The notes beneath the pieces are model-generated. The model was not told the origin of the DNA, ran no database searches, and worked only from the letters and a program-made list of their open reading frames with translations. This document shows positions 4,350 through 30,516 of a DNA stretch of 30,516 bases, one piece after another. The position numbers were made by a program, and so were the translations under genes. Location: positions 1 to 30,516 of IMG/VR virus record IMGVR_UViG_3300033571_014780; one strand, given 5' to 3'. The DNA is from a virus. Numbering within the stretch: the first letter of the stretch is position 1; every line of letters starts with the position of its first letter.

Positions 4350-4354
4350 AAAAA

Positions 4355-4362
4355 TATTTATA
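4355..4362 (-). promoter_or_regulatory. Late promoter box TATAAATA
   Basis: Exact T4 late promoter octamer, 5 nt before ATG 4349. With the T4 spacing the first transcribed base would be the A of the start codon. Confidence 0.75.
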
Positions 4363-4919: not shown

Positions 4920-4928
4920 ATTTTTAAA

Positions 4929-4936
4929 TATTTATC
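4929..4936 (-). promoter_or_regulatory. Late promoter box GATAAATA
   Basis: Between sheath and tube genes, ending 9 nt before ATG 4919. Confidence 0.65.
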
Positions 4937-7156: not shown

Positions 7157-7169
7157 ATTATGATACAAA

Positions 7170-7177
7170 TATTTATC
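7170..7177 (-). promoter_or_regulatory. Late promoter box GATAAATA
   Basis: Ends 13 nt before the sheath ATG at 7156, the longest spacing in the window. Confidence 0.6.
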
Positions 7178-7212: not shown

Positions 7213-7220
7213 GATAAGTA
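7213..7220 (+). promoter_or_regulatory. Late promoter box GATAAGTA
   Basis: Ends 9 nt before ATG 7230. It diverges from the sheath promoter 36 nt away. Confidence 0.6.
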
Positions 7221-7229
7221 TTTGCAACT

Positions 7230-7505
7230 ATGTTAAAATTCAATAAGTTATTTTTAGAAATTTTAGAAGAAGCTGGTAAATGCACCGGACCTACTAAAAA
7301 AACATCAAGCACAAACAAAGGAAAAAAATGGACCAAATGTGCCAAACAACCAGACGGTTCTTACAAAAGAATACATTGGGGACAAAAAGGTGTAAAGGTT
7401 TCGGGAAAAGCCAACACCAAACGTAGAAAATCTTTTAGAGCGCGTCACAAATGTAGCACAGCAAAGGCAGGAAGCCCCCGTGCTGCTGCATGTGCCGATT
7501 GGTAA
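7230..7505 (+). CDS. Small basic protein with capsid-targeting N-terminus
   Basis: 91 residues, strongly basic after the N-terminus. It starts MLKFNKLFLEILEEAG, an amphipathic stretch ending in ILE/LEE like a T4 capsid-targeting signal. The rest is rich in Lys/Arg with four or more Cys: CTGPTKK, GKKWTKCAKQPDG, then a C-terminal motif KRRKSFRARHKCSTAKAG ending AACADW. A very similar basic SFRARH-C tail occurs in small proteins of many large phages, with no known function to my knowledge. After prohead cleavage the product would be a small DNA-binding internal head protein (inference). First gene of a plus-strand cluster. Confidence 0.75.
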   Translation: MLKFNKLFLEILEEAGKCTGPTKKTSSTNKGKKWTKCAKQPDGSYKRIHWGQKGVKVSGKANTKRRKSFRARHKCSTAKAGSPRAAACADW

Positions 7506-12604: not shown

Positions 12605-13189
12605 ATGGATAAGTCTGAGCGCAGAAAAGAATACAGAGAGAAAAATAAAGAATACATCAAAAGAGATAGATATATACGATATCACGAAAACAGAGAAGAT
12701 TATATCGAAAAGGCTAAAAAATATTACCAAGAAAATAAAGAAAGAATAAAAGATCGAAAACGGAAACTGTATTACGAAAATAAAGAATTGCGATGCAAAT
12801 ATTCAAGAGATTATTATTAAAAAAATAAAAACCGAAGAAATTTATACGAGAAAAACAGAAGACAATCAGACCCTTTATATAAAATTAAAATATTGATTCG
12901 GTCGAGATTTAAAGAAATTTTAAAAAATAAGAATTTTAAAAAGGATAAATCGCCCATAGAATTAATAGGCTGTTCGATAAGCGATTTAAAATTTTACTTA
13001 GAATCTCAATTTAAAGATGGTATGAGTTGGGAAAATCACGGAATAAAGGGTTGGCATATTGATCATATAAAACCTTGTTCCTCTTTCGACTTAACCGATA
13101 TAGAACAACAAAAACAATGTTTTCATTATACTAATTTACAACCATTATGGTGGAAAGATAATTTGTTGAAGGGTAATAAAACTTTTTAA
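12605..13189 (+). pseudogene. HNH homing endonuclease interrupted by an in-frame stop
   Basis: Two pieces in the same frame: 12605-12817 and 12821-13189, separated only by TAA at 12818-12820 (codon 72). Reading through gives one 194-codon protein. Its N-terminal part is rich in charged Lys/Glu/Tyr/Arg repeats (KEYREKNKEY, KKYYQENKER). A linker RRQSDPLYKIK follows, then SRFKEILKNKNF, the HNH core with IELIGCSISDLKFYLESQF, WENHGIKGWHIDHIKPCSSF (~143-161) and YTNLQPLWWKDNLLKG. This is the usual layout of phage freestanding HNH endonucleases. One base change (for example from AAA) would restore it. It sits alone on the plus strand between two minus-strand virion operons, typical of a homing insertion. 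It may be dead, or produce a C-terminal catalytic fragment from TTG 12893. Confidence 0.8.
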
Positions 13190-13814: not shown

Positions 13815-14486
13815 TTATTTTCTTTCAAGTTTCCAACCACCCGATGCCAGAGGCGTTAAAACCATATTTGTTTTTCCTTTTACTGTTTTAACTCGTCTAT
13901 CACCAAAATCTATACCATAATCGTTTTCGATTTGTTGTTTTTCCAAAGGTGTCAAAATCGTAGCGGTGCTTTGGGCTTTATTCACAACTTTCGATTTGTA
14001 TGGAGTTTTTAGGTTTTTTCTTACTTTTGGTATCATTGTTAAACTTTTTCTATCTGTATCGTTCCCGACAGTTCTGCGCAAGGAGTGATGATGCCCTTGT
14101 TGGTTTGGATGATCCTTTGTATATTTCATGTATGGATTTAGGCTTTCCTGAACCTCTTCACCATCGCGTTCGATGAATTTATTAAACCCGTAGGTCGAAT
14201 CCCATGCCATTCTCGCTTGAACCGGATTGAAGTTTTTGTTTTTCAGTTTGATGAGTTCTCCCATCTTTTTAAACATAAAATCTTTTTCGCCATCGGTGAA
14301 GGTTTCAAAACTCCCCGGTAAATGACGAATAATAGCTTGACCCACTAAAAAAGAGTTCTTGAAATTTGGGACATCTTTACCCACACGCACAAGCATTAAT
14401 TTGATATAGTTTATAATCGATTGTTGTCGTTGTGGTGAAACAATAGACGATGCGGCGTTTTCGTTTAAAATGTTAAAAAAGTCCAT
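13815..14486 (-). CDS. Capsid-targeted protein of unknown function
   Basis: 224 residues from ATG 14486; a longer frame from TTG 14501 is rejected because the promoter box covers it. It begins MDFFNILNENAAS, with LNE at 7-9, a good capsid-targeting signal. After it come a helical region (QQSIINYIKLMLVRVGKDVP, SFLVGQAIIRHLPG) and a long basic, probably disordered part rich in Lys/Arg/His (GHHHSLRRTVG, RKNLKTPYKSK). A second Glu-containing site VQESLNPY lies mid-protein. A DNA-binding internal head protein would fit (inference). Same operon as the neck gene. Confidence 0.7.
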   Translation of the reverse strand: MDFFNILNENAASSIVSPQRQQSIINYIKLMLVRVGKDVPNFKNSFLVGQAIIRHLPGSFETFTDGEKDFMFKKMGELIKLKNKNFNPVQARMAWDSTYGFNKFIERDGEEVQESLNPYMKYTKDHPNQQGHHHSLRRTVGNDTDRKSLTMIPKVRKNLKTPYKSKVVNKAQSTATILTPLEKQQIENDYGIDFGDRRVKTVKGKTNMVLTPLASGGWKLERK

Positions 14487-14559: not shown

Positions 14560-15507
14560 TTATTGATCAAATAAGGCTTTTCCGGTTTTAACTGCACCAG
14601 AAACGGTATGACTTGATGGTTTCATCAAATTGTGTCCTGCTGTTGGTGAGAGTTTTGTTGGAACACCGTCATGGCCTTTTCCAGTTGCTGGAACTTGGGC
14701 TTTGCTCTTACTTGCTTTAGGGCTGTTGTTTTTTACTTCGGCCTTTTTGTTTTGGAGGTTTTTGATGTTACCTTTGAAGGGTTTAAGATTTACACCCTTT
14801 TTGAGTCCGGTAACTTTTACACCCTCAACTAATTTTTTTTTAACGTTTTTGCTTTCCTTGAAAGGGTTTTCGTCATCTTCTTCGGAATCGTCGCTTGAAT
14901 CGACTTCCCCTTCGGAATCGTCAGATGATTCTTCGGAATCGTCAGAATCGTCAAAAAGTTCCTCACCATCTTCGGAACCTTCGAGTTCTTCGGTGTCTCC
15001 ACCATCAACAAGTTGCTCTAACTTGGAAAGAACGTCTTTCAAGGTGGTAACAAGGTCGTTTACATCAAATTCTGTGTCGCCTTCTACGTCACCGTCTAAA
15101 TCTTCGATATCATCGATAACATCTTCTTCGCCTTCCCCGCCGCCTGAAAATTCAGAATCAAGGTCTAATCCGTCATTTCCACCATCTACGTCTAATGAGG
15201 GTTCGATTTCGTTTTCGTCTTCGGTTGAGAAGTCAAACGAATTTTCGCTTACAATCTTGTTGTAAAGCGCATCAAATGGGTTTTGGAAACTGGATTTGTC
15301 GAGTTTCTTGGGTTCGCCTTTTTTAACATCGGCGGAAAGTTCTTTTTTATCTTCTGGTTTGTCTAAATCGACATTTTCATCAGCATCGTTGCCTTCTTTG
15401 AAATCGCCAAAAGCGTCTTTGCCTGTTTTGAGTGTAGACCCCTTAACTGCACTATCGTTAGATTCGTTGAGGACTTCCATGTATGATTTGATTAATTCGT
15501 CTTGCAT
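14560..15507 (-). CDS. Acidic prohead-core-like protein with capsid signal
   Basis: 315 residues, extremely acidic in the middle (~95-215: long runs of Asp/Glu/Ser/Gly such as DDSDDSEESSDDSEGEVD) and basic at the C-terminus (KESKNVKKKLVEG, KAEVKNNSPKASKSKAQV). It begins MQDELIKSYMEVLNESND with LNE at 13-15. A second signal-like stretch FDALYNKIVSENSFD lies at 79-93, just before the acidic domain. Residues 26-31 (LKTGKD) match LKTGQD at the same place in the gene upstream. Acidic, processed proteins of this sort form the scaffold or internal core of T4-like proheads; I infer that role. Followed by a strong terminator, suggesting high expression. Confidence 0.65.
   Translation of the reverse strand: MQDELIKSYMEVLNESNDSAVKGSTLKTGKDAFGDFKEGNDADENVDLDKPEDKKELSADVKKGEPKKLDKSSFQNPFDALYNKIVSENSFDFSTEDENEIEPSLDVDGGNDGLDLDSEFSGGGEGEEDVIDDIEDLDGDVEGDTEFDVNDLVTTLKDVLSKLEQLVDGGDTEELEGSEDGEELFDDSDDSEESSDDSEGEVDSSDDSEEDDENPFKESKNVKKKLVEGVKVTGLKKGVNLKPFKGNIKNLQNKKAEVKNNSPKASKSKAQVPATGKGHDGVPTKLSPTAGHNLMKPSSHTVSGAVKTGKALFDQ
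14881..14952. repeat. Short imperfect tandem repeat, TTCGGAATCGTC
   Basis: TTCGGAATCGTC recurs at 14881, 14911 and 14932, followed by a partial copy ending at 14952. It encodes the Asp/Ser/Glu-rich part of the acidic protein on the minus strand. Slippage in such a repeat could change the length of the acidic domain. Confidence 0.6.
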
Positions 15508-15556: not shown

Positions 15557-15859
15557 TTACTTTGGTGCTTTTTCCATACCCAATTCAAAATACGCCATGC
15601 TCATATCATTTACGTTTTTAATTATCTCTTGGGTTACTTTGGGATCGACACTGTATTTACTTTCAACCTCTTTGAGTTGTCTGATGATCATTTTATAAAA
15701 ATCTATAGCAGTTGTGTCTGGTCCGATCTTTTCTTTATCGAACTCGTCCATAAAACCTTCTCTGGAATCTTGTCCCGTTTTTAAACTTGGGTCGAAATTG
15801 GATTTTTGCGAAACTTCTTCATAAGCTTCCAGAAGTTTTTTATCACTAGAATAAATCAT
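15557..15859 (-). CDS. Small capsid-targeted protein
   Basis: 100 residues. It starts MIYSSDKKLLEAYEEVSQ, with LLE at 9-11, the same LLEAYE pattern as the gene at 21883-22359. Residues 26-31 LKTGQD align with LKTGKD in the acidic protein downstream, so the two genes share about 30 N-terminal residues. The rest is two or three helices (AIDFYKMIIRQLKEVESKY, VTQEIIKNVNDMSMAYFELG). Small helical proteins of this kind occur as internal head or core proteins (inference). It lies 1 nt from the nuclease gene but has its own late box, so it can be expressed separately. Confidence 0.7.
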   Translation of the reverse strand: MIYSSDKKLLEAYEEVSQKSNFDPSLKTGQDSREGFMDEFDKEKIGPDTTAIDFYKMIIRQLKEVESKYSVDPKVTQEIIKNVNDMSMAYFELGMEKAPK

Positions 15860-21882: not shown

Positions 21883-22359
21883 TTATTCGGTTTCGGATGG
21901 ATGTAAAAATCCAGCTTTACCGAGTGTCGATTTTAAGTCACCGACAGAAACGCTACCTTTTCCAGATGTTGAGGCAAGCTTTTTGATAATTCCCTTGAGG
22001 AATGTTGAGGCTTGTTCGTAATTTGCCACGCTATTATCTGTTACGTTTCCAACTTTTTTCAAATCATTTATGAAATCATCAATTTGTGAGTTTAATTTTT
22101 GAACGTGTGAACTTATAACGGTTGAACTTTTACCGCTTTTAAACCCAGAAGAAATATCTTTTTTAAGAGATTTGAAATCCTTAGTATCGGGATTTGTCAG
22201 AGATTCGTATCCGCGAGATACTGCTTTTTTTACACCAGAAAACGTTCCTTTAGCCCGATCTAAAATGCCTTCTTCGACAGGTTTGTTTTCGGAATTTTCT
22301 TCTTTCGTGCGAATGTTTTCATATGCTTCTTCGAGCATTTTATGGTCAGCGTATTTCAT
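21883..22359 (-). CDS. Capsid-targeted helical protein
   Basis: 158 residues starting MKYADHKMLEEAYENIRT, with LEE at 9-11, nearly identical in form to LLEAYEEV of the gene at 15557-15859. The remainder is Lys/Ser-rich and helical (KSLKKDISSGFKSGKSS, VQKLNSQIDDFINDLKKVG), with a Gly-poor C-terminal module ending GKAGFLHPSETE. A second candidate site PVEEGILDRAKG lies at ~28-39. Predicted to be an internal head protein. First gene after a late-like box; it separates the dUTPase from the small-protein operon. Confidence 0.7.
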   Translation of the reverse strand: MKYADHKMLEEAYENIRTKEENSENKPVEEGILDRAKGTFSGVKKAVSRGYESLTNPDTKDFKSLKKDISSGFKSGKSSTVISSHVQKLNSQIDDFINDLKKVGNVTDNSVANYEQASTFLKGIIKKLASTSGKGSVSVGDLKSTLGKAGFLHPSETE

Positions 22360-24399: not shown

Positions 24400-24407
24400 G
24401 ATAAGTA
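24400..24407 (+). promoter_or_regulatory. Late promoter box GATAAGTA
   Basis: Ends 7 nt (all T) before ATG 24415. Confidence 0.65.
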
Positions 24408-24414
24408 TTTTTTT

Positions 24415-24792
24415 ATGGTATCATTTCAAGAAATTCTCGAAGAATCCCTCGACAAAAAAAGATTCAAGGTTTCTTCATACAAATATGGGTTTAGCGGAGA
24501 GACGGTAGCCTGTTCTAAAGCCCAAGCTGTAGCCTACATTGCGGTTCGTTATGCCAAAGAAAAAGGCTCGAAAGCCAACTATGCATCAATTGTAAGCGAT
24601 TTTAAGAAAAGTGCAACTGTTAAACTTTTAGAAAGTTTGATCGTTGAGAAAAAAAAGAAGCGCAAGAAAAAAAGAAAAGCGAAAAAAGCTAAATTTTATG
24701 GATGGGGTTGGGGATATGGTGGACACGGTTGTTGTTCGGATTCTGATGGAAACTCCGGTGGAGATGGGGGAGGGGGCGGTGACGGTGGATAA
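24415..24792 (+). CDS. Basic, Gly-tailed capsid-targeted protein
   Basis: 125 residues. It starts MVSFQEILEESLDKK, with ILE/LEE at 7-10, one of the clearest capsid signals. A small folded region follows (SKAQAVAYIAVRYAKEKGSK), then LLESLIVE, a run of about 15 Lys/Arg (EKKKKRKKKRKAKKAKFYG) and a Gly-rich tail (GWGWGYGGHG, GGDGGGGGDGG). The Lys run suggests DNA condensation or binding in the head. The distal part overlaps a second reading frame that begins the next gene. Confidence 0.7.
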   Translation: MVSFQEILEESLDKKRFKVSSYKYGFSGETVACSKAQAVAYIAVRYAKEKGSKANYASIVSDFKKSATVKLLESLIVEKKKKRKKKRKAKKAKFYGWGWGYGGHGCCSDSDGNSGGDGGGGGDGG

Positions 24793-25093
24793 TACAGTTT
24801 ATTTTAAAGATTTTTTCCTTTTACACGAAGATATTAAAAATGGAAAATTGCAAAAATTTCAAAAGATTGTTAAGTTTGCATTAGGGTTAATAGAAAAGGG
24901 CGAAGACGTTCTAGCTTTTGTAAATAAATACCGGAACGAGTTTATACCTATGATGATGCTTGTGTCTGCCATCACGATGATGGGATACGTTGGTGTTTTT
25001 ATTAAAAATAACCCAGAGGCTTTACTTGCTGATGAAGTCGTTATAAGATGGGTGCTTCCAAAAGTTGATGCAGTTTTAGACAAATTGTTATAA
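24764..25093 (+). CDS. Small membrane protein overlapping the preceding gene
   Basis: Up to 109 residues; start at ATG 24764 or, more probably by analogy with other overlaps here, GTG 24785 whose GTGGATAA spans the preceding stop (then 103 residues). VDNTVYFKDFFLLHEDIKNG leads to a helix, then one hydrophobic segment (EFIPMMMLVSAITMMGYVGV) and an amphipathic C-terminus. A single-pass membrane protein, possibly lysis-related, but no holin or spanin motif is recognised. Its stop overlaps that of the convergent ATP-grasp gene. Confidence 0.55.
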   Translation: MGEGAVTVDNTVYFKDFFLLHEDIKNGKLQKFQKIVKFALGLIEKGEDVLAFVNKYRNEFIPMMMLVSAITMMGYVGVFIKNNPEALLADEVVIRWVLPKVDAVLDKLL

Positions 25094-25918
25094 TAACGAC
25101 ATATCATCAAAATCTTCTAATGCAATTTCGCTGACCCTCTTTACGATATTTTCCATCTTACACTCGTATAAACCAGCAGATGAAAAGGATGTAAGTTCCA
25201 TCATCCAAAATTTACCATCTGTATCCTGACATATATCAACACAGAAAACACAATTTGGAAAATATTCCACGTTTAAGATTTCTTGAACTAACTCTGTTGC
25301 ACCTTTCGGAGCAGACGGAACCCTTGTAATCAATCCTTGGTATTTGTAACTAGAAACACCCAAAATCTCTTTGTCTTTTGTTACAACAAAACGCCATTCG
25401 CCCACGATATTTTTAGGACTCGACACAACAACCAAATCTTTGCTGAATTGTTTGACATCTTCGTAAAAGCCGTTCCAGTCGTTTAAATCCACAAGTTCTG
25501 CCTTGAAAGTCTTTTCTCCGCTATCGGGTCGGACAAACATCATAGACTCTTTTCCAAATTGCCCATAAAATTCCCAAACCCTTCGGTTGAGACTTTCTAA
25601 TGGCAAAAATATATAATCATCGTTGAAGAGAAATTTTTCAAAGTATGGATAATATGCAGAACACAAATAATTTTCAAAACTATTGTAAGATATTGGGTAA
25701 CAACCTTTTTCCAACAATTTTGTTTTGACAATTTTCGACATTTCTATCGATCCGTTGAAAATAACCGGAGAGTTTTCTAGAACAAAATCCAAATCGCTGT
25801 TCTTATAATCGCCGTTTATAACATAAATATCATAATTTTGTTTCTTAACTTCATTGGCGAGGTTCGTATACGACTTCTCTTTTACGAAATTTTCGATTAT
25901 CCATGTTAATTTTTTCAC
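25088..25918 (-). CDS. ATP-grasp domain protein
   Basis: 276 residues from GTG 25918. The ATP-grasp layout is visible: FVRPDSGEKTFKAELV (nucleotide and substrate loop), VGEWRFVVTKDKEILGVSSY (Glu/Arg of the grasp), CVDICQDTDGKFWMMELTSF (the metal-binding DxC..ELxSF close to the C-terminus) and SSAGLYEC. This resembles the phage/bacterial DUF4343-type ATP-grasp proteins. ATP-grasp ligases join a carboxylate to an amine or thiol through an acyl phosphate; the substrate here is unknown. It may modify a protein or peptide of the host or virion. Has a strong TTGACA promoter, so is likely early. Confidence 0.8.
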   Translation of the reverse strand: MKKLTWIIENFVKEKSYTNLANEVKKQNYDIYVINGDYKNSDLDFVLENSPVIFNGSIEMSKIVKTKLLEKGCYPISYNSFENYLCSAYYPYFEKFLFNDDYIFLPLESLNRRVWEFYGQFGKESMMFVRPDSGEKTFKAELVDLNDWNGFYEDVKQFSKDLVVVSSPKNIVGEWRFVVTKDKEILGVSSYKYQGLITRVPSAPKGATELVQEILNVEYFPNCVFCVDICQDTDGKFWMMELTSFSSAGLYECKMENIVKRVSEIALEDFDDMSLL

Positions 25919-25966: not shown

Positions 25967-25974
25967 TATAAATA
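25967..25974 (+). promoter_or_regulatory. Late promoter box TATAAATA
   Basis: Exact T4 late octamer, 8 nt before ATG 25983. Confidence 0.75.
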
Positions 25975-25982
25975 TTTAAACG

Positions 25983-26573
25983 ATGAGAGATAACGACACG
26001 ATTATACTGGAAAATTTTTATACCAAAATTTTAACCAAAGAACAAGACGAAACCCAAACACCCGTTAACAACGGACAAAACCTTGTTGCACAACTTCAAG
26101 AATTTTTAAGCAGAGGTGCTACATTTGCATCATTTATGTATAAGAGCAAAGGAACAGGTGAAACAGCTATATACAACGTCAATTTAAATGTCGATTATCA
26201 AAGAGTGAAAAGCGAAGATTTAGAAACTATCACTAATTACCAACCAGAAAATGATATCGAAGCGGAGGCTAAAGAATCTCTTTTAAACCCAAAACCAAGA
26301 AAAGCGGCAGTAAGCTCTTTTAAATCTTTGGGTAAAGGTATTTTGTATGATGAAAAAACCGGAGCCGTCAAAATTCACGGTTGGTTACAAAATAAACAAA
26401 CCATTCAAGCTGGTGAACCAAGTAAACCAGTAAATTCTGCTCCTCTTACAATTGCGAAAAGAGCATTAGAGAAAAAGCTACAACTTAAACGTTTAAAAAT
26501 CAGAGAATTTATTCTAAGCCCCGAACACATTTCAGGATTAAAACTGAAAGGTGACGTAATAGAATTCCAATAA
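25983..26573 (+). CDS. Capsid-targeted protein of unknown function
   Basis: 196 residues, starting MRDNDTIILENFYTKILTKE with ILE at 8-10. A further LQEFLSRGATFASFMYKSKG region follows, then a beta part (IYNVNLNVDYQRV), an acidic linker (ENDIEAEAKESLL), a basic Lys-rich helix (TIAKRALEKKLQLKRLKIRE) and a short beta end. No family recognised. The late box, capsid signal and basic C-terminus match the other internal-head candidates. It is the first gene of a plus-strand group of tail-like and adhesin-like genes and may be co-transcribed with them (next start 1 nt after its stop). Confidence 0.7.
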   Translation: MRDNDTIILENFYTKILTKEQDETQTPVNNGQNLVAQLQEFLSRGATFASFMYKSKGTGETAIYNVNLNVDYQRVKSEDLETITNYQPENDIEAEAKESLLNPKPRKAAVSSFKSLGKGILYDEKTGAVKIHGWLQNKQTIQAGEPSKPVNSAPLTIAKRALEKKLQLKRLKIREFILSPEHISGLKLKGDVIEFQ

Positions 26574-28605: not shown

Positions 28606-28818
28606 ATGCCAATTAGAATACAAACACATAAACATCAAATTACTCTCGGTGCTGGAATTTCTTCGATATATACGGCAGAAGTTTTAAACGAGTTTTTTAC
28701 CAGATTAACCCCAACAACCGTCCTCGGAGATACTATTGACGTATCTGGGAATGTTGGAAGTTCTGAATGCGATGTTTCGATAGCAACCGCTAAAGGATAT
28801 ACTGTTATTATCGATTAA
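28606..28818 (+). CDS. Small protein of unknown function
   Basis: 70 residues: MPIRIQTHKHQITLGAGISS, VLNEFFTRLTPTTVLGDTID and VSGNVGSSECDVSIATAKGY. The second half is like a repeat unit of BspA-type leucine-rich surface proteins (for example VLGDTIDVSGN with S-x-x-A-x-x-K-G-Y), in which a numeric-type strand-turn repeats. Too short for a firm call. It ends the adhesin group and its stop overlaps that of the convergent ArdC-like gene. Confidence 0.5.
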   Translation: MPIRIQTHKHQITLGAGISSIYTAEVLNEFFTRLTPTTVLGDTIDVSGNVGSSECDVSIATAKGYTVIID

Positions 28819-30089
28819 AACGTTCCGAAGAATTTTTTAAACGATTCTGGAACAACGGGTTGGTTGTCATCCTTATGAATGTAATCATAGACATAATCGA
28901 TGATTATGTTTGCGGTTTTCCGAATGACTTCTTGGTTTTGGTTGATGTTTTCTGGATCAACTTTCCACAAGGCCAAATATTTTGCAGCGTGTTCAGAATT
29001 TAATCCGAATTCTTCTAAAACTGCATACGCGACACCTTCGGCTTGAAGCTCGACGATATTGTGTGCAAGCGGTTCTGTCATTCTGGCTCCTTTTGTTTGA
29101 TGGAGTAGTTCGTGAGCAATTTCGTGAACCATTGTTGAAATATTCTTTTGCAACAATTGAACCGATCCGCCCATGCTAACGCCTCTAGCACCATCCAACC
29201 CTTCGGCATCAACGGTAACAGTGATATTCTTGGATTTTGCAAACTGTTCTAATGCTGTGTATATCTGTTCGGTTGTTTCGTCAACATTTTCATCAGAATA
29301 CCATTTTGGCGCAGTTGGAACCTTTGCTTGATCTTCTTTTCCTTCTATCGGTTCCGTATCTGAAATATCAAAAACCGGACCTAGTTTAAATCTCATTATC
29401 TTTTCTTCTCTATCACCATCACCAGACTGAATAGCGGGTGCGCCAACTTCACGGTTAACCATGATAGGAATAAAAATCTGAATAGCCTTTGCGCCCTTCT
29501 TTATCTTTCTACCAAATTCTTTTTCCCATTTAACTCTGCCAGCAACGTGTGTTGCAGTTTTTTTTTGAAAGAAAATAAGCATTTGGTTGTTGAAAGAATA
29601 TTTACGGAATTTTTTACGAAAGCTTAAAAACTCTTTGACTTCTGGTGAGTTGATATTTTCGGTAACTTCTTTTTTAAGCTTGTCTAAAAAGTTTGTAATC
29701 TGATCCTGTGCGCCAATGTCTGTCAAATCTTCTATTTCCTCTTCGGCGTTTGCAAAATCTACAATACCACCTTGGGCTGGTTTGTTTATAGAGTAAACAG
29801 CCTTTTTATATTCTGGTGCGACCCGACGAAATTCTTCCTCGTCATAGCTTTTTTTCGAAACCCATTTTCTCAAATTGGTTCTATCGAAGAAAAACAAATT
29901 CGTTTGTTTGACCTTATCTTTATTTTTAAAAGTTTCGTTTCTTCCAGCAGCATCGGGTAAATCGCTATCAACGACGAAAATATACTTCCCATCATCCAAC
30001 ATTTTTCTCTTTAATACCAAATTTTCCTCGACGGGGTTTACAATTTTTTGATAGGTTTCCGATAACAACTCTAGGTCTTTGTCTTTCAT
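28815..30089 (-). CDS. ArdC-like antirestriction metalloprotease with capsid signal
   Basis: 424 residues. It starts MKDKDLELLSETYQKI with LSE at 9-11, the capsid signal. Residues ~25-150 are a charged domain (KYIFVVDSDLPDAAGRNETF). Residues ~153-240 match the ArdC N-terminal ssDNA-binding domain: FRKYSFNNQMLIFFQKKTAT, HVAGRVKWEKEFGRKIKKGA and KAIQIFIPIM. The C-terminal part has the ArdC peptidase motif MVHEIAHELLHQ (HEIAH at 322-326) with ELQAEGVAYAV (Glu-347 and Glu-351, third-ligand candidates). ArdC proteins, known from conjugative plasmids such as pSa, block type I and II restriction of incoming DNA. Carrying a capsid signal it could be injected with the genome. Late box upstream, head of a divergent pair. 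Confidence 0.8.
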   Translation of the reverse strand: MKDKDLELLSETYQKIVNPVEENLVLKRKMLDDGKYIFVVDSDLPDAAGRNETFKNKDKVKQTNLFFFDRTNLRKWVSKKSYDEEEFRRVAPEYKKAVYSINKPAQGGIVDFANAEEEIEDLTDIGAQDQITNFLDKLKKEVTENINSPEVKEFLSFRKKFRKYSFNNQMLIFFQKKTATHVAGRVKWEKEFGRKIKKGAKAIQIFIPIMVNREVGAPAIQSGDGDREEKIMRFKLGPVFDISDTEPIEGKEDQAKVPTAPKWYSDENVDETTEQIYTALEQFAKSKNITVTVDAEGLDGARGVSMGGSVQLLQKNISTMVHEIAHELLHQTKGARMTEPLAHNIVELQAEGVAYAVLEEFGLNSEHAAKYLALWKVDPENINQNQEVIRKTANIIIDYVYDYIHKDDNQPVVPESFKKFFGTF

Positions 30090-30094
30090 AGATA

Positions 30095-30102
30095 GATAAA
30101 TA
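30095..30102 (+). promoter_or_regulatory. Late promoter box GATAAATA (divergent pair)
   Basis: Ends 6 nt before ATG 30109. It overlaps the opposite-strand box of the ArdC-like gene by 2 bp. Confidence 0.65.
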
Positions 30103-30108
30103 CTTATT
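30101..30108 (-). promoter_or_regulatory. Late promoter box AATAAGTA (divergent pair)
   Basis: Ends 11 nt before ATG 30089 of the ArdC-like gene. ATAAATACTTAT (30096-30107) is nearly self-complementary, so both strands carry a box. Confidence 0.55.
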
Positions 30109-30516
30109 ATGAATATTGTCCAAGAAGGATATTTCCACGTTCCCGAATCTGTCTACAGAGATATAACAGAGTATTTTAAAGATGCTTACAGGGCTGTAAA
30201 GATTAACAATATTAAAAAAATAGGATCGAAAAACTTTCCTATAAAAAATTTCCCGATAGATTTTAAAGGGACACGGTTTGAGTTTCTAAATAAACTAACA
30301 CCCCAACCTTCTATTGATGTTCAGCTTACGACAACGGAGAAAAGTTTCTATAATAATGAAGATTTGAGTATAAACAAAGGATACATACAGTTGGGGTTGG
30401 GTCATGATGCGAGAGCATTATATGAAGTAATCGAACACGAAATGACCCATTTTGTTCAGTATTTGATTCAAAAGCACAGACAAGAAAAAACCAAAAACTC
30501 AGAAAACCTGAAAAGA
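30109..30516 (+). CDS. HExxH metallopeptidase-like protein (cut by window edge)
   Basis: 136 residues up to the window end, which truncates it. It starts MNIVQEGYFHVPESVYRDIT; no typical capsid signal is seen. The last visible part has YEVIEHEMTHFVQYLIQKH (HEMTH at ~114-118), a gluzincin zinc motif, preceded by INKGYIQLGLGHDARALYE, a strand-helix pair as in phage SprT/M78-like small peptidases. It may be a partner of the divergent ArdC-like gene, sharing a promoter region of 19 bp. Substrate unknown. Confidence 0.65.
   Translation, partial: MNIVQEGYFHVPESVYRDITEYFKDAYRAVKINNIKKIGSKNFPIKNFPIDFKGTRFEFLNKLTPQPSIDVQLTTTEKSFYNNEDLSINKGYIQLGLGHDARALYEVIEHEMTHFVQYLIQKHRQEKTKNSENLKR

Follow-up and report, generated by a model that had tools for sequence, protein, structure and literature searches.

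A 30.5-kb viral fragment from IMG/VR (record IMGVR_UViG_3300033571_014780, analyzed over its full 30,516 nucleotides and hereafter called the window) encodes an ArdC-type protein that, we propose, resides inside the head of a T4-superfamily phage as an internal protein. The protein would be produced late and taken by a helical N-terminal leader into the prohead core, where a gp21-type prohead protease would strip residues 1-22, most likely by cutting after Glu22 (VEE|N). Mature ArdC would then be ejected with the DNA into the next host and shield it from restriction upon entry, in the way that plasmid ArdC protects DNA transferred by conjugation. Packaging with leader removal, as read from sequence, is likely; for the entire chain, including anti-restriction, we estimate a probability of about 0.55. 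The family and fold of the protein, the occurrence of its leader on unrelated proteins, a fixed [LIVF]xE motif, gp21 and gp23 in relatives, and a late-type box were computed here; packaging, cleavage, ejection, and anti-restriction are inferred.

The window encodes an ArdC-type protein

The open reading frame (ORF) lies where the first-pass annotation had placed it (28815-30089, minus strand, 424 aa), and the peptides cited there were all located, i.e., MKDKDLELLSETYQKI, with LSE at residues 9-11, KYSFNNQMLIFF, HVAGRVKWEKEFGRKIKKG, and HEIAH at 322-326. The ArdC-type identity proposed in that annotation was likewise borne out. ArdcN (PF08401) matched residues 129-240 above the Pfam cut-off (E value of 2.7e-6; 28.1 bits versus 22.6), PHROG 7245, annotated as "anti-restriction protein," matched the ORF with an E value of 2.6e-13, and both the HEIAH zinc-binding motif and the glutamate-helix motif ELQAE, a gluzincin motif as in R388 ArdC (PMC7213743), were conserved among 25 homologues. 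Whereas a single-protein phmmer query of the PDB did not retrieve ArdC, the profile built from the 25 homologues retrieved R388 ArdC (E value of 0.0064), and a Foldseek search of the PDB with the predicted structure returned R388 ArdC (6sna; E value of 3.6e-4, probability of 1.00) and no other match with an E value of 1e-3 or less; overall, the two structures superposed poorly. Given these domain, motif, profile, and fold matches, the ArdC identification is sound. By analogy with the plasmid protein, single-stranded DNA (ssDNA) binding and anti-restriction are putative activities of the phage ArdC. Upstream of ArdC-N, the DUF5710 match on one homologue (L015) was weak (E value of 0.1).

The N-terminal leader recurs on unrelated proteins

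The N-terminus had also been annotated as a capsid-targeting signal, a proposal that the recurrence of the leader on unrelated, putatively packaged proteins supports, with the difference that the conserved glutamate is Glu22 and not Glu11. We compared the occurrence of [LIMFV][LI]xE in residues 4-22 with that in internal windows of the same proteins. The motif was present near the N-terminus of 9 of the 39 proteins encoded in the window versus 3.1% of internal windows (p = 2.7e-6), and eight related contigs displayed N-terminal enrichment in the same direction (p = 3e-4 to 0.027). The sister contig G002 carries an ArdC that is 64% identical to that of the window and begins MRDVDTIILENLY. A leader of the form MRDNDT[IL][IL]LE is found on three other G002 proteins, namely a GNAT acetyltransferase (MRDNDTLILENLY), a 482-aa protein (MRDNDTLILETLY), and an 881-aa protein (MRDNDTILLESLY), as well as on a 196-aa protein of the window (MRDNDTIILENFY), and a 145-aa protein of contig G016 carries the leader MRDNDTLLMEEVY. 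Over ~30 nt, the DNA encoding the tag is the same in GNAT and the 482-aa protein, and the remaining tags differ at many synonymous sites; it therefore appears to be the leader peptide that is kept. The window ArdC displays a second leader type, D..LLxExY.KI, also present on the window proteins encoded at 21883-22359 and 15557-15859, and its LLSETYQKI matches MKHRDQILLSEAYSKI in a ParB-like protein of G053 and MKKTDIDLLQEAYEKI in the gene adjoining ArdC in G054. Three ArdC homologues (L016, L169, and L172) start directly at ArdC-N or at a primase fusion without any leader, and neither gp21 nor gp23 was found on their contigs.

At the other end of the protein, an SFKKFF-like motif is present in the C-terminal tail of ArdC (28818-28865) and of some other leader-bearing proteins, such as tagged proteins of G002 and G054. 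It was enriched in G002 only (p = 0.0018) and weakly overall (p = 0.0075), and a C-terminal [LIV]xE-plus-hydrophobic pattern showed no genome-wide enrichment.

Orthologues place the predicted cleavage after Glu22

The ArdC leaders found on T4-type contigs are divergent (MISFKNIKSLLSE, MISFKNIKTFLTE, MISFKNIKTILNE, MSFYEFYNSIINE, and MSKFDDVLSRILDEEETSLFGE; further forms are MTPKLF...YILFE, MEILDI...HIILE, and MRDVDT...TIEE, compared to MKDKDL...PVEE in the window). Despite this divergence, [LIVF]xE immediately precedes the conserved LxLK-type block in every tagged orthologue, and the glutamates aligned with Glu22 are found in IEE, LSE, LNE, LTE, INE, FGE, LFE, and ILE. The orthologues are related and hence are not independent observations, although the leaders themselves barely align. 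The fixed position of [LIVF]xE thus makes Glu22|Asn23 the best-supported and most likely cut in the window protein, which moves the predicted neo-N-terminus to residue 23. Main cleavage after Glu11, the site originally proposed, is disfavored by the same alignment; Glu11 may be part of a recognition core or correspond to a first cut.

ArdC-bearing relatives encode T4-type head proteins

Among the genes of the window are those for a T4-type sheath, tail tube, and neck. gp23 was detected in G006 and in 8 of 10 further ArdC-bearing contigs, and a gp21-type S77 protease was found in six ArdC-bearing relatives (G052, G054, G055, G056, G057, and G059) as well as in G068 and G070, whose ArdC homologues are more distant. 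A Pfam S77 search of the first 15 ArdC records, mostly fragments, had revealed no protease, and the matches came later from longer relatives. phrog_31 was dropped as a head marker, being a poor choice.

In G006, whose ArdC is tagged, an 81-aa basic protein (MGLFSNIFSKILNEDNTAGPGGVFGAGPSIG) matches a region of gp23 (MVNEDNTAASGGVFGSGTSIG; 68% over 44 aa, 9.7e-13), and its ...KILNEDNTAGPGGVFG has the gp23 junction ...MVNEDNTAASGGVFG. T4 gp23 reads FLTE|AEIGG in the matching region, where the bar marks what we take to be the T4 gp23 cut position, so the LxE-ending leader of the 81-aa protein adjoins the sequence found after the presumed cut in gp23. As a positive control, T4 IPII and IPIII carry MKTYQEFIAE|A. 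Small basic proteins in which the gp23 junction region is repeated after an xE-ending leader are encoded in G006 (L030:4982-5227, minus strand), G012 (L033:4942-5169, minus strand), and G054 (L201:5387-5626, plus strand); from their sequences, they look like internal head proteins mimicking the N-terminus of the major capsid protein.

A late-type box precedes ArdC, tail, and tagged genes

The window contains 8 copies of the motif DATAARTATTT versus 0.56 expected, and none of 100 shuffles reached 8, a statistic that is somewhat favorable since the motif was written once the upstream sequences had been viewed. Copies lie ~3-11 nt upstream of the start codons of the sheath and tube genes, two more tail-block genes, three tagged genes, and ArdC. 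The motif resembles the T4 late box, TATAAATA, and is a candidate promoter only. Near variants are found upstream of ArdC in G002 and G006 and upstream of gp21 in G059 and G054. Exact TATAAATA boxes were modestly associated with tagged genes across nine contigs (p = 0.0036), and the window ArdC is devoid of an exact copy; the looser DATAARTATTT box is the stronger evidence. If the boxes are promoters, their spacing of ~3-11 nt from the start codons (e.g., 4352-4362 and 30098-30108) would make the late mRNAs almost leaderless.

Weighing the proposed role against alternatives

Several observations weigh against packaging followed by anti-restriction. The window is devoid of head genes, with gp21 and gp23 seen in relatives only, and neither gene was seen in G002 or G016, which are close sister fragments. 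The four-residue N-terminal pattern is weak by itself in individual contigs (p = 0.019 in G002 and 0.027 in G059), and VEE, with valine at P3, falls outside the (L/I)xE preference of the T4 prohead protease, which favors L or I at P3; the sister protein has IEE. The alignment-based AlphaFold model is of moderate quality (predicted local distance difference test score of 71.6, predicted template modeling [TM] score of 0.52), and its global TM score on 6sna is low (0.22/0.37), a poor fit that flexible domains would explain. The source phages are uncultured, and packaging and cleavage are predicted from their sequences alone. Finally, R388 ArdC is an ssDNA-binding protein that works when it is produced in the recipient (PMC7213743), so the analogy to the phage protein is imperfect, and phage DNA, unlike the ssDNA ligand of R388 ArdC, enters as double-stranded DNA. 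R388 ArdC overcomes HsdRMS, and by analogy with it, injection of the phage ArdC and subsequent protection of the DNA from restriction are plausible.

A serious rival to an anti-restriction role is that ArdC is packaged and injected but cleaves a host protein, such as a restriction, repair, or transcription factor, instead of shielding DNA. All 25 homologues retain the HExxH and glutamate-helix residues without exception, as expected if catalysis matters, jumbo-phage ArdC-like peptidases have been proposed to act on host proteins (PMC7824862), and the tagged proteins of the sister phages include effector-like ones (GNAT and an SNF2-type helicase). However, the protease activity of R388 ArdC is dispensable for overcoming HsdRMS (PMC7213743), ArdC-N is kept alongside the peptidase, and any host substrate is putative. 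We regard a host-directed protease as rather unlikely.

An assembly or maturation role within the head, with a genuine tag and no part played in the new host, would suit the core- or structural-looking members of the tagged set, i.e., the acidic protein of 315 aa, a scaffold of the gp22 type whose N-terminus contains LxE, and the small basic proteins. An assembly factor should be more constant than ArdC, which is missing from 34 of 35 related head- or neck-matched contigs and which we accordingly rejected as a constant gene of these phages in favor of an accessory one. In addition, ArdC sits among other tagged non-core genes, amid several leader-bearing genes in G053 and three genes away from a leader-bearing 981-aa SNF2-type helicase in G054, and we consider an assembly role improbable. 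That the protein is an ordinary intracellular ArdC, whose N-terminal likeness is a coincidence or an unrelated localization signal, is very improbable: LxE is common in single proteins (about 12-16% of internal 16-residue windows) and R388 ArdC functions when expressed in the recipient cell (PMC7213743), but unrelated proteins have nearly letter-for-letter the same leaders, the [LIVF]xE position is constant, the leaderless homologues come from contigs without gp21 or gp23 matches, and ArdC has a late-type box in common with tail genes.

Beyond the proposed delivery of ArdC, a general head-loading code may operate in environmental T4-superfamily phages, for which we see even odds. It would combine the late-type box with exchangeable leaders that terminate in a gp21-type site and would load many accessory effectors (ArdC, GNAT, the SNF2-type helicase, the ParB-like protein, and unknowns). 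ArdC would have moved in from conjugative elements, with virion injection replacing conjugation, and the code would be readable from sequence, so that proteins injected by uncultured phages could be listed.

Comparison with known internal and anti-restriction proteins

The T4 internal proteins (IPs) possess a leader that is cleaved, are injected, and counter type IV restriction enzymes (PMC9958956, PMC12373910). In IPI, IPII, IPIII, and Alt, a short leader at the N-terminus ends in an xE site, targets the protein to the prohead core, and is removed by gp21, and the protein is coinjected with the DNA; these features are proposed for the phage ArdC. Both MVSFQEILEE in the window and the orthologue leader MSFYEFYNSIINE resemble T4 MKTYQEFIAE, whereas the leader of the window ArdC is of the D..LLxExY type. 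The IPs are small, unrelated to ArdC, and inhibit specific enzymes; the cargo proposed here is a two-domain ArdC. With R388/pSa ArdC, the phage protein shares ArdC-N, a C-terminal gluzincin domain with HExxH and the glutamate helix, and the 6sna fold match. In contrast, the plasmid protein is tied to conjugation, is required in the recipient, and lacks a comparable leader, judging by the domains described for it (residues 1-134 and 151-297), and the phage proteins have ~100 additional residues separating the leader from ArdC-N.

In phage P1, DarB has N-terminal capsid-targeting residues, and the Dar proteins are packaged in the head and injected as anti-restriction proteins (PMC9024508). The leader-bearing SNF2-type helicase near ArdC in G054 recalls DarB by type only; P1 Dar involves other proteins and another head protease system, with no ArdC described. 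Pfam and PHROG searches of the ArdC ORF returned ArdC-type families and no Dar family, no direct sequence comparison with DarA or DarB having been made. Iyer et al. (2017) predicted that ArdC-N proteins are transferred with DNA and protect it at entry, and found ArdC-N to be rare in phage polyvalent proteins (PMC5512222). The passages considered here describe the same ArdC-N plus MPTase architecture and neither a leader for head targeting nor a cleavage site for a prohead protease on ArdC.

The phage ArdC would belong with known internal head proteins; no capsid-delivered ArdC was found in the literature searched, whose scope excluded most subscription journals. If correct, a plasmid conjugation protein has been reused as a virion-injected protein, the leader provides a sequence-readable list of the proteins that uncultured T4-like phages bring into their hosts, and counter-defense at DNA entry becomes directly testable for phages known from metagenomes only.

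Table 1. Features of the window that relate to ArdC, leader-bearing proteins, and late-type boxes
Feature	Coordinates	Strand	Basis or remark
ArdC-type protein, 424 aa, ATG start	28815..30089	-	ArdcN, phrog_7245, fold match 6sna
N-terminal leader MKDKDLELLSETYQKIVNPVEE, residues 1-22	30024..30089	-	Proposed capsid-targeting peptide; helix 3-17 in model
Glu22 codon, proposed scissile residue (VEE|N)	30024..30026	-	Orthologue alignment
Glu11 codon (LSE|T), earlier-proposed site	30057..30059	-	In LLxExY core common to tagged proteins; alternative or first cut
Conserved pre-ArdC region (LxLK...NETFKNKD...), residues 24-101	29787..30020	-	Alignment; DUF5710-like by eye only
ArdC-N ssDNA-binding-type domain, residues 129-240	29370..29705	-	Pfam
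HEIAH zinc-binding motif, residues 322-326	29112..29126	-	H322, E323, H326 invariant, 25 homologues
Glutamate-helix motif ELQAE, residues 347-351	29037..29051	-	E347, A350, E351 invariant, 25 homologues
C-terminal tail ending VVPESFKKFFGTF, residues 409-424	28818..28865	-	Possible second signal or trimming site, weak
Late-type box AATAAGTATTT	30098..30108	-	~9 nt upstream of ArdC start codon
Late-type box	4926..4936	-	Upstream of tail tube gene
Late-type box	7167..7177	-	Upstream of tail sheath gene
Late-type box	7213..7223	+	Upstream of tagged gene 7230
Late-type box	24400..24410	+	Upstream of tagged gene 24415
Late-type box	25967..25977	+	Upstream of MRDNDT-tagged gene
Tagged protein, leader MLKFNKLFLEILEEAG	7230..7505	+	
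Tagged protein, leader MDFFNILNEN	13815..14486	-	
Acidic 315-aa protein, leader MQDELIKSYMEVLNES	14560..15507	-	Leader kept in G016
100-aa protein, leader MIYSSDKKLLEAYEEV	15557..15859	-	
158-aa protein, leader MKYADHKMLEEAYENI	21883..22359	-	
Tagged protein, leader MVSFQEILEES	24415..24792	+	Close to T4 MKTYQEFIAE
196-aa protein, leader MRDNDTIILENFYTKIL	25983..26573	+	Leader type as G002 ArdC

Neighboring genes and other ArdC contexts

The leader-bearing cluster of G054 (L202:4088-9504) comprises ArdC, a 136-aa protein, a 253-aa protein, and the 981-aa SNF2-type helicase, and is a candidate injected anti-restriction island. On a 362-kb contig and a 62-kb contig, ArdC makes up the C-terminal portion of proteins of 861 and 1090 aa (L165:6594-9179 and L166:5865-9137), in which repeated NENTTAGGVGGSF-like and SLDE|S-like sites hint that they are possibly polyproteins cut by the head protease. 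A 748-aa protein (L015:9503-11749, also in L014) combines the leader MKYSDFYNLKEAP, a central ArdC, and a weak C-terminal glucosaminidase match.

In the window, the divergent neighbor of ArdC (30109-30516, plus strand) contains an EHEMTH metallopeptidase-like motif, and its homologue in G002 (L017:11212-12105) has a leader-like N-terminus, MPQHDSHILKEF. An ORF with an HNH-like motif located between structural genes (12893-13189, plus strand) is, as judged by eye, probably a homing endonuclease, and 25088-25918 (minus strand) encodes an R2K-clade ATP-grasp protein (Pfam R2K_2, E value of 2.7e-11).
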